Shown piece by piece: positions 37,905 to 40,018 of a DNA stretch of 64,000 nucleotides. The DNA is taken from positions 5,828,001 to 5,892,000 of the forward strand of contig NZ_CP018620.1 in the NCBI RefSeq assembly GCF_001908275.1. The letters run 5' to 3'. The notes beneath the pieces are model-generated. The model was not told the DNA's origin. It searched no databases and saw only the letters and a list, made by a program, of their open reading frames with translations. Every line of letters starts with the position of its first letter. Position 1 is the first letter of the stretch. The stretch is from Paenibacillus xylanexedens (lineage in GTDB: Bacteria; Bacillota; Bacilli; Paenibacillales; Paenibacillaceae). The translations under genes and the position numbers were made by a program.

Positions 37905-37958
37905 AAAAGGAGCCTGTGCATGTGGGATCATCTCCCTCATCATGCACAGGCTCCTTTT
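37905..37958. terminator. Strong bidirectional terminator
   Basis: A perfect 18-bp stem (37905-37922 with 37941-37958) has A and T runs on both sides. It separates the beta-helix gene and the converging PAS-GGDEF gene. Confidence 0.92.
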
Positions 37959-37984: not shown

Positions 37985-38968
37985 TTAACTCTTTACCATC
38001 TGAGCTGCATGTGTCACCCGGTTTCGTCCTCCGGTTTTGGAGGCATACAGGGCGTTGTCCGCTCTTTGGAACAAGGACTTTTCCGTATCTTCCTCTACTA
38101 CAGTGGCCGCACCGATACTCACAGTAATGTTATATTCACCCCAGTCGGCTGAAGCAACCTGTGAACGATATCGTTCTGCAATACCGATCGCCTGCTCCTC
38201 TTCACAATCTGGAAGAATGACAACAAATTCCTCTCCACCGTAACGTGCAACCACATCCGTACTTCTCGATACCGTTTGCAGCAGCCCTGCCAGATTGCCG
38301 AGCACCAGATCTCCGATCGGATGTCCGTACGTATCATTAATGCTTTTGAAATGATCAATGTCTACAACGAGAAGGGAGAAATAACGTTGTTTCTCCTGGA
38401 ACATCATTAAACTTTCAAGCATTTTTTCCTGGAAAAACCTGCGGTTCTTCAATCCTGTCAACAAGTCGGTGGAGGCCAGTGTCTCCAACTGATCATTCAC
38501 TTTGATTAACGCCTGCTCTTTAATTTTATATTCCTCATGCAGTCGTTCAAGCTCCTTGTTCGCTTCTTGCGTCGCTTGATACAGCTCCTGTAGTTTGGTT
38601 TTGGTATGCAAAATATCCTTCTCATGTTCGATTCGCTTACGCATGACTACAACGACACAATCTACCACACTTTCCCCGTTACGGGTCTGACGAACACCGT
38701 TAAGCAGCACGGGAACAGCCTGCTGATCACGAGTACGAAACGTGAAGAACATCTCGTCCACATGTCCATATAACTGGATGTAGGGATAGAAATACGTATG
38801 GAAAAACACCTTGTTGCTCACCGACATGGTGGACTCAATATGTTGCCCCACAAGCTCATCGCGTTCATATCCAAGCATCGTAAGCAAGGTTTGATTAATC
38901 GATTGTACGATGCCTGAATCTGAGATAGAGAAGTATCCACAGGGAGCCAGATCTAATTGTATATCCAT
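37985..38968 (-). CDS. PAS-GGDEF diguanylate cyclase with an RsbP-like PAS domain
   Basis: The 327-aa cytosolic protein has an N-terminal PAS domain (~1-112), a coiled-coil linker (~113-165) and a GGDEF domain (~166-322). The active-site motif is GGEEF (244-248) and an inhibitory site R235-x-x-D238 lies five residues before it, so it should be an active, product-inhibited c-di-GMP synthase. The PAS domain (start MDIQLDLAPCGYF, end VVDCVVVVMRKRIEHE) resembles the PAS domain of B. subtilis RsbP, which is otherwise joined to a PP2C phosphatase. The gene follows the rsbQ-like gene by 24 bp and AAAGGCG precedes the ATG. The pair is probably one operon. Confidence 0.9.
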   Translation of the reverse strand: MDIQLDLAPCGYFSISDSGIVQSINQTLLTMLGYERDELVGQHIESTMSVSNKVFFHTYFYPYIQLYGHVDEMFFTFRTRDQQAVPVLLNGVRQTRNGESVVDCVVVVMRKRIEHEKDILHTKTKLQELYQATQEANKELERLHEEYKIKEQALIKVNDQLETLASTDLLTGLKNRRFFQEKMLESLMMFQEKQRYFSLLVVDIDHFKSINDTYGHPIGDLVLGNLAGLLQTVSRSTDVVARYGGEEFVVILPDCEEEQAIGIAERYRSQVASADWGEYNITVSIGAATVVEEDTEKSLFQRADNALYASKTGGRNRVTHAAQMVKS

Positions 38969-38992
38969 GGAATAACGCCTTTCTACCGAGTT

Positions 38993-39799
38993 TTATGCAC
39001 TCGTTAAATAATCCTTAATCATGCGGATCGTTTCTTCCGGTTGACTTAGATGCGGATAATGTCCCTTGGCCGTCATCTGTTGCAACCTGCTGTTCTTCAG
39101 ATGAGCGTGCAAGTAATCCCCTACTTCAACCGGAGCAATGCTGTCATCCGAGCACTGAAGAATCAATGTTGGCACAGTTGCCTGCTCCAGATCAATACGA
39201 CAGTCAGATAAAAACGTCACTTCAGCAAATTGTCTCGCAATATGCGGATCTCTGGAGCAGAAGCTTTTCTCCAACTCTTCCGTCAGCTCTTTCCGTTCCG
39301 GATTGTTCATCACAATGGGTGCCAGATAACTCGCCCACCCAATAAAATTCATCTGCATCATCTCAAGTAATTCATCGATATCATTCCGATCAAAACCTCC
39401 ATAATAATTCGGCAGATCATTCACGTAACGTGGGGAGGGCCCTAACATTATAATTTTTTTGAAATATTTGGGGTTCTGAATCGATGCCAGCATACCAATC
39501 ATACTGCTGACGGAATGCCCGACAAATATGGTGTCCTTTAGCTCAAGCGCTTCCATAACTTCCAGCACATCCTGGGCGTATCCTTGAAGATTGCTATATT
39601 TGATAGCATCATAATAGTTAATTTGAGATTCGCCAGATCCAACATAATCAAACAACACCACACGGTAGTTCTCCATAAAACCTGGAACAATGTAACGCCA
39701 CATATCCTGATCACATCCAAAACCATGAGCAAATACAATCGTTTGGCTACCCGAGCCAAGTACCTTAACATTATTTCTTACAAGTACATCAACCGTCAT
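38993..39799 (-). CDS. rsbQ: RsbQ-like alpha/beta hydrolase
   Basis: The 268-aa protein aligns along its length with B. subtilis RsbQ. It has the same catalytic numbering: S96 in VGHSVSS, D219 in QCSDDSIAP and H247 in AKGHYPH. It also keeps the oxyanion region HGFGCDQDMW and the FDYVGSGES motif. In B. subtilis, RsbQ supplies an unknown small-molecule signal to the PAS domain of RsbP and thereby activates the energy branch of the general stress response. Here the next gene encodes a similar PAS domain joined to GGDEF. GAGGTGAT precedes the ATG. The substrate is unknown. Confidence 0.9.
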   Translation of the reverse strand: MTVDVLVRNNVKVLGSGSQTIVFAHGFGCDQDMWRYIVPGFMENYRVVLFDYVGSGESQINYYDAIKYSNLQGYAQDVLEVMEALELKDTIFVGHSVSSMIGMLASIQNPKYFKKIIMLGPSPRYVNDLPNYYGGFDRNDIDELLEMMQMNFIGWASYLAPIVMNNPERKELTEELEKSFCSRDPHIARQFAEVTFLSDCRIDLEQATVPTLILQCSDDSIAPVEVGDYLHAHLKNSRLQQMTAKGHYPHLSQPEETIRMIKDYLTSA

Positions 39800-40018
39800 T
39801 GCATATCACCTCTCCGAGGTAGTATTCACTTGAATCATTTTATCTGATTATTATACCGGAAAATGTTGGGATATGAATTAAAAATTATTAATAACTTCTC
39901 TCATCCACCAAAAAATCATGAACCCCTGCTCTGAATATGCGCTTTACAATCTGACCATCGTCAGGTAAAATCAGTCCAACATGTCGCGCGACAGAGATTA
40001 ACATTACGGAGGAAAACC

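Follow-up and report, generated by a model that had tools for sequence, protein, structure and literature searches.

The window analysed here, a stretch of 64,000 nucleotides from the 5.83-5.89 Mb part of the 7.1-Mb genome of Paenibacillus xylanexedens, contains two consecutive minus-strand open reading frames, the first encoding an alpha/beta hydrolase and the second a PAS protein that ends in a diguanylate cyclase domain. The 24-bp spacer between them, already given in a first-pass annotation of the sequence, was confirmed and corresponds to bases 38969-38992. The features of this unit are the following:

39850..39877, minus strand: vegetative-type promoter-like site TTCATA-16-TATAAT, 5' of the hydrolase gene (consensus match only)
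38993..39799, minus strand: RsbQ-type alpha/beta hydrolase, 268 aa, triad S96/D219/H247 (open reading frame, structure-database match, alignment)
37985..38968, minus strand: PAS - helical linker - GGEEF diguanylate cyclase, 327 aa (open reading frame, Pfam, motifs)
38633..38968, minus strand: RsbP-type PAS domain, residues 1-112 (alignment, tree and profile)
38474..38632, minus strand: linker, residues 113-165 (heptad test)
38018..38476, minus strand: GGDEF domain, residues 165-317 (Pfam)
38255..38266, minus strand: RSTD, RxxD product-inhibition site, residues 235-238 (alignment)
38225..38239, minus strand: GGEEF active-site motif, residues 244-248 (alignment)
37905..37958, no strand assigned: terminator-type hairpin closing the two-gene unit (RNA fold)

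The hydrolase-cyclase unit looks self-contained, with the promoter-like site at its 5' end, a strong hairpin at its 3' end and an MFS-like gene running divergently on the other side. A promoter scan of the region found 9 sites against 4.8 expected, and at the hydrolase-cyclase unit only a SigA-like site was detected. Its TATAAT is present in 7 of 8 aligned relatives, several rows of this upstream alignment being non-homologous beyond the promoter. The hairpin reaches -38.8 kcal/mol in a 76-nt fold (z -6.8) and does not appear among the matches of a simple terminator scan. A c-di-GMP riboswitch or another Rfam RNA was also considered and rejected, as the whole window gave no match at gathering scores.

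The closest solved structure for the hydrolase, and the best of 209 matches, is B. subtilis RsbQ (1wom, E 4.7e-106), to which it is 59% identical. The first-pass annotation had assigned the catalytic triad by RsbQ numbering, and the alignment agrees, with S96 (in VGHSVSS), D219 and H247 at the B. subtilis positions; each of the 107 aligned RsbQ rows has the complete triad. The hydrolase of Paenibacillus amylolyticus Heshi-A3 is 95% identical, and none of the best 25 of 30 NCBIfam rows passes its cut-off for the window protein. The nearest solved relatives after 1wom are 3qvm from Oleispira and then the plant proteins KAI2 (E about 1e-66) and D14 (E about 1e-55), RsbQ being a bacterial relative of the karrikin and strigolactone receptors. 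KAI2 and D14 differ in being plant receptors with MAX2/SMXL partners, and neither of them is known to have a PAS partner.

The PAS domain of the partner, placed by Pfam at residues 5-110 of 327, shares C10, F55, Y59, P62, E72 and P86 with RsbP and is 41% identical to the PAS of an RsbP-like PAS-PPM protein of B. inaquosorum. Nadezhdin et al. (PMC3183031) named nine residues as characteristic of PAS domains that pair with RsbQ (C10, L13, L48, Q53, F55, C56, Y59, E72 and P86 in B. subtilis). Their counterparts in the window are C, F, M, K, F, F, Y, E and P, and five of them (C10, F55, Y59, E72, P86) are identical to B. subtilis. By comparison with the 75% consensus classes of that paper (h, b, a, n), the replacements F13, K53 and F56 seem conservative; M48 departs from the class L48. 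Among the residues that are essential in B. subtilis, F55, Y59 and E72 are kept and L48 is replaced by M. As M takes the place of L48 in 22 of 31 aligned PAS-cyclase sequences and 13 of the 31 have I, L, V or Y instead of F55, the contact between RsbQ and PAS may differ from that in B. subtilis. A DIT motif (D[IVL]T) was not found in residues 91-130 of the partner, which corresponds to its absence in the RsbQ-PAS (Q-PAS) class discussed below.

A chance resemblance to the RsbP domain was rejected on the basis of a PAS tree and of profile scores. The tree (112 columns) separates 107 RsbQ-paired PAS domains, comprising cyclase, phosphatase, kinase and lone forms, from 20 further PAS domains encoded in this genome by a branch with SH-aLRT 99; these are 20 of the genome's 23 other PAS matches, three short ones having been dropped. 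An RsbP-PAS profile built from 14 rows, the window and the B. inaquosorum protein among them, gives 172 bits for the window, 176 for the B. inaquosorum protein and 22 for the best of the 20 other PAS domains. In a whole-genome scan with this profile, in which 15 of 39 candidates were scored, the window copy was the sole match at E<=1e-10. The similarity to the PAS of RsbP claimed at the outset is therefore borne out, and the finding named beforehand as refuting, a phylogeny placing the domain away from RsbP, is the opposite of what the tree returned.

The cyclase domain is recognised by Pfam (GGDEF, E 1.3e-44), and no PP2C/PPM family is among the Pfam matches of the partner at E<=0.001, so that the description of a GGEEF output with an RxxD site in place of the PP2C phosphatase holds. 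All 31 aligned sequences, the window included, retain GGEEF, and so do all of the 69 family loci inspected in addition. In the window RSTD sits five residues before GGEEF, which we take to be the canonical spacing of the I-site. An active, product-inhibited diguanylate cyclase is expected to carry GG[DE]EF with RxxD five residues upstream, and by its motifs the window protein would be such an enzyme. RxxD is found in 27 of the 31 aligned sequences and in 46 of the 69 further loci; as it is missing in the other 23, product inhibition does not seem to be general. Between PAS and cyclase, residues 113-162 of the linker show a heptad pattern and contain neither P nor G. By an a/d heptad score compared with shuffled sequences (the 2011 paper cited below used PCOIL), this pattern is reached by 2 of 500 shuffles in the window and by at most 25 of 500 in 28 of 31 rows, the heptads of the other three rows being weak. 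For the class, a possible coiled coil of 21 residues or more is required to connect PAS and output, and the heptad test detects one here. Furthermore, the linker measures 53 residues in all 31 aligned sequences, a constancy in keeping with a coiled coil that transmits a signal. In three of three pairs chosen by us dN of the cyclase gene is lower than dS, one of these pairs being saturated.

The survey of genomes for RsbQ beside PAS-GGDEF, proposed as a check in the first-pass annotation, turned out in favour of the pairing. The 295 Paenibacillaceae genomes contain 126 RsbQ loci, spread over 118 genomes (E<=1e-60), and 129 RsbP-type PAS loci, spread over 121 (E<=1e-10). A PAS lies directly downstream of RsbQ at 126 of 126 loci, adjacency being defined as the same strand with -50 to 400 bp separating the two matches; 7 of these RsbQ matches are interrupted by an internal stop codon. 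Conversely, RsbQ stands beside 126 of the 129 PAS loci. The partners of the 126 hydrolases are 94 PAS-GGDEF proteins (one of them, in G196, interrupted within the PAS), 27 lone PAS proteins, four broken or deleted cyclases and one kinase. Inspection covered 95 long-frame partners (69 + 26, among them G311 with RsbQ remnants only), and GGDEF and PAS share one frame in 69 of the 69, that of G196 being the interrupted one. Within the genus 50 of 75 genomes match the hydrolase at E<=1e-20. There, 40 of 44 RsbQ loci of the window type were inspected and consist of 39 PAS-GGDEF partners and a broken one (L033), G019 having been inspected additionally; RsbQ loci of a second type have a lone PAS in 7 of 7 cases, and 5 further match rows (G005, G055, G029) are RsbQ fragments.

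In a broader set, an RsbP-type PAS lies directly downstream of RsbQ in 79 of 80 named loci, the best 80 of at least 583 relatives, which come from several phyla and range from Bacteroidota to Cyanobacteria with many MAGs; the 80th, L090, ends at a contig edge. Together with the 126 of 126 family loci this means that the adjacency is not due to chance. The outputs at these best 80 of at least 583 loci are 31 GGDEF, 9 PPM, 31 kinase, 3 lone PAS and 6 broken or cut off. They were classified by their resemblance to the window, L115 and L135, and Pfam confirms PPM in L115 and the kinase in L135; 11 of the 31 kinases are low-scoring and were first called by eye, and in 10 of them, L118 being the exception, Pfam recognises the ATPase domain of a kinase. 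The hydrolase tree tracks the output type of the partner: it shows 7 changes, compared with 55.6 on average after shuffling, a contrast that is inflated by relatedness. This tree of 107 rows, from which broken or cut-off loci, the duplicate L191 and unnamed window-type genus loci were left out, is a quick search with SH-aLRT support only.

These data bear on the question of which protein is the sensor. It could be that the PAS senses a ligand of its own (redox, gas or metabolite), that the hydrolase makes or clears its cofactor or regulates a different target, and that the cyclase is largely independent of it. The PAS as primary sensor corresponds to Model 1 of Nadezhdin et al. (PMC3183031), and the genome encodes another PAS-GGDEF frame of 337 aa (L217/L002) whose PAS is not RsbP-like (4 bits). 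Nevertheless, we regard this explanation as improbable in view of the adjacency at 126 of 126 family loci and of a hydrolase tree that follows the output type, the latter with the reservation on relatedness given above. Moreover, two of the three family PAS loci that are devoid of an intact RsbQ keep RsbQ remnants, the third having none, and the pairing is therefore broken only rarely. Even less credible, to a degree that we consider it very unlikely, is an inherited operon in which the genes are neighbours by descent only and the hydrolase now serves an unrelated metabolism. An experiment linking both proteins in Paenibacillus was not found in the open-licence literature, which would suit this idea, but the pair outlasts its flanks: of 15 loci the 5 near ones keep 2-4 of the 4 window neighbours and 10 keep 0-1 (L022, L024 and L030 with only 1.5 kb of flank; L046 and L066 from the same genome). 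The retention of the class-specific residues of the F-alpha helix and the occurrence of the same pairing from Bacteroidota to Cyanobacteria also speak against common descent as the sole reason.

The combination of RsbQ with a PAS-diguanylate cyclase, as well as a model for it, was already published in 2011, when Nadezhdin, Brody and Price described 45 RsbQ-PAS pairs with three outputs, the diguanylate cyclases occurring in Gram-positive and Gram-negative bacteria (PMC3183031). The window pair is a member of this previously described class. It shares with the cyclase branch the gene order, the N-terminal RsbP-type PAS, the class residues, the lack of DIT, the helical linker and the GGDEF output. 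Paenibacillus is named 0 times in the main text of that paper, and nothing else of substance differs from what is described there. The class was restated in eLife in 2025 together with an AlphaFold model of 2RsbP/2RsbQ (PMC12143880). Compared with RsbQ/RsbP of B. subtilis, the hydrolases are similar and the window has the GGEEF output instead of the PPM phosphatase. A further precedent for an input module of the SigB pathway driving a cyclase is MtG of Moorella thermoacetica, a GGDEF protein controlled by an N-terminal domain of the RsbT/RsbU type (as cited in PMC12143880). There, too, the input module is wired to the cyclase via a coiled coil; MtG differs in its partner RsbT and in its N-terminal domain.

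We therefore consider it very probable that the window encodes a Q-PAS module of the Nadezhdin type, in which docking of RsbQ on the PAS would control the diguanylate cyclase output. The gene pair, its domains and active-site motifs, the kinship with the RsbP PAS, the co-occurrence and the linker length can be read directly from the sequences. Docking and a requirement for the triad would be carried over from B. subtilis, where the triad is needed for signalling and F55A as well as two-hybrid data support a contact between RsbQ and PAS; purified RsbQ was not pulled down by purified RsbP, extract being needed (PMC3183031). According to the model in the same paper, RsbQ makes contact with the PAS and exerts its effect via the coiled coil. 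For the window pair we envisage that RsbQ would bind the PAS of a cyclase dimer via the F-alpha helix (F55, Y59) and would either deliver the product of its Ser-Asp-His triad or report that its own pocket is occupied, like its relatives KAI2 and D14. The change would then travel along the coiled coil of 53 residues and make or break the productive arrangement of the two GGEEF domains, so that c-di-GMP would go up or down, with the RxxD site limiting the product. What the signal is, in which direction it acts and which physiological target it serves we can only infer; energy or metabolite stress as the input and motility or biofilm as the output, suggested in the first-pass annotation, would be candidates only. 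The signal of RsbP was called unknown in 2011 (PMC3183031), and no assay of an RsbQ-paired cyclase was found among the open-licence papers retrieved. Since c-di-GMP can be read by standard biosensors, the RsbQ-cyclase would be a convenient handle for finding the RsbQ signal.

The genomic context is in line with a c-di-GMP output. The element by which RsbQP reaches SigB, a PPM phosphatase on the PAS protein that acts on RsbV, is absent from the PAS protein described here, and an RsbP-type phosphatase was not found in the genome by a PPM search or by the RsbP-PAS profile scan. The genome has three PPM matches, namely a long frame that we took for SpoIIE, a receiver-PPM protein and a weak third one beside a protein kinase. 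A SigB-like system is present, as judged by domain content, and is devoid of an RsbP-type PAS: one locus (L170, G000:C1:6664000-6679000) encodes a STAS protein, an RsbW-type ATPase, a sigma-70 factor of 257 aa, a receiver-PPM phosphatase, a GAF hybrid kinase of 1241 aa and CheR (Pfam), and presumably resembles RsbV-RsbW-SigB and RsbK/RsbY/RsbM. With 201 bits, its sigma factor stays below the SigB cut-off of 315, which is passed by sigma factors in 0 of 75 genus genomes and in 1 of 14 control genomes. A route from RsbQ to SigB through an RsbP in this genome was accordingly rejected; with no RsbP found, the partner left to RsbQ here is the cyclase. With 15 GGDEF, 3 EAL and 3 PilZ matches, a predicted c-di-GMP network is available to receive the signal. 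The earlier proposal that the RsbQ/PAS input sets c-di-GMP levels thus fared well in each step that sequences can address, i.e., a true RsbQ, an RsbP-type PAS, intact cyclase motifs and no RsbP-type phosphatase found. In 2023 RsbQP was assigned to Paenibacillus by orthogroups (PMC9847131); such calls may refer to cyclase or lone-PAS modules, and caution is advisable when RsbQ-bearing Paenibacillus genomes are named as RsbQP/SigB systems by orthology.

The second unit in Paenibacillaceae, RsbQ with a PAS protein that has no output domain, appears to be new. Its frames comprise 111-224 aa, some with a short coil, and the 27 family loci are what remains of 31 frames below 250 aa after subtraction of the four broken or deleted cyclases (G073, G244, G264, G289); the idea that all lone PAS proteins are broken cyclases was rejected, as the other 27 are not. 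The loci of this form are L039-L045, L086, L087, L134, L172-L175, L178, L179, L181-L186, L188-L196, L198 and L199. The triad is kept in 32 of 32 lone-PAS hydrolases, dN is well below dS in nine of nine chosen pairs (e.g., 0.13 vs 0.93), and in 34 rows, two of them lacking an intact RsbQ, the class residues L48 (34), Y59 (28), P86 (27), F55 (24) and E72 (24) are frequent. By these sequence features the units do not look decayed. Of the 32 hydrolases 25 fall in one clade (support 98), five in a second one, and two are single rows. One gene family neighbours the unit in 4 of 32 loci, at varied places, and no other is so frequent. A class-level survey of 398 genomes, counted irrespective of an RsbQ neighbour, found frames below 250 aa only in Paenibacillaceae (5 loci), plus one partial match in G611. 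All 10 genomes with two intact modules have one cyclase and one lone PAS (G020, G068, G148, G186, G187, G198, G221 and G233 in the family survey, G026 and G037 in the genus survey). A description of RsbQ with a lone PAS as a class was not found in the open-licence papers searched; the 2011 paper mentions two cases without an output domain and explains them by a contig end and by a possible sequencing frameshift (PMC3183031). We propose, with somewhat less than even confidence, that the RsbQ-PAS sensor of Paenibacillaceae has two lasting forms, a cyclase-coupled one and a free-standing RsbQ/lone PAS that would signal in trans, perhaps by joining the coiled coils of other sensors including the window-type cyclase. 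The question of which of the two proteins senses, hydrolase or PAS, could be addressed most simply in the lone-PAS form.

Several minor observations were made in the course of these surveys. In two Paenibacillaceae loci (L105 and L200) RsbQ-PAS is coupled to a PAS-HisKA-HATPase kinase; in the 2011 survey kinase outputs are reported only for Gram-negative bacteria (PMC3183031). Broken or partly deleted module genes occur in L033, L176, L187/L068, L088, L197, L202/L250 and L203 as well as in G005 and G055. In L056 (G029:C4) an RsbQ end of 69 residues is 100% identical to the window and a PAS gene was not found beside it, which looks like a recent deletion. Finally, the perfect palindrome TGTCGCGCGACA is located at 39982-39993 of the window, ahead of the divergent MFS-like gene (40019), behind which a TetR-like gene follows (41226). 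It is identical in L057 and L058 and present as a palindromic variant in L061; with at most one mismatch it is matched in 8 of 100 shuffles of the window. It is possible that this palindrome represents a TetR operator.
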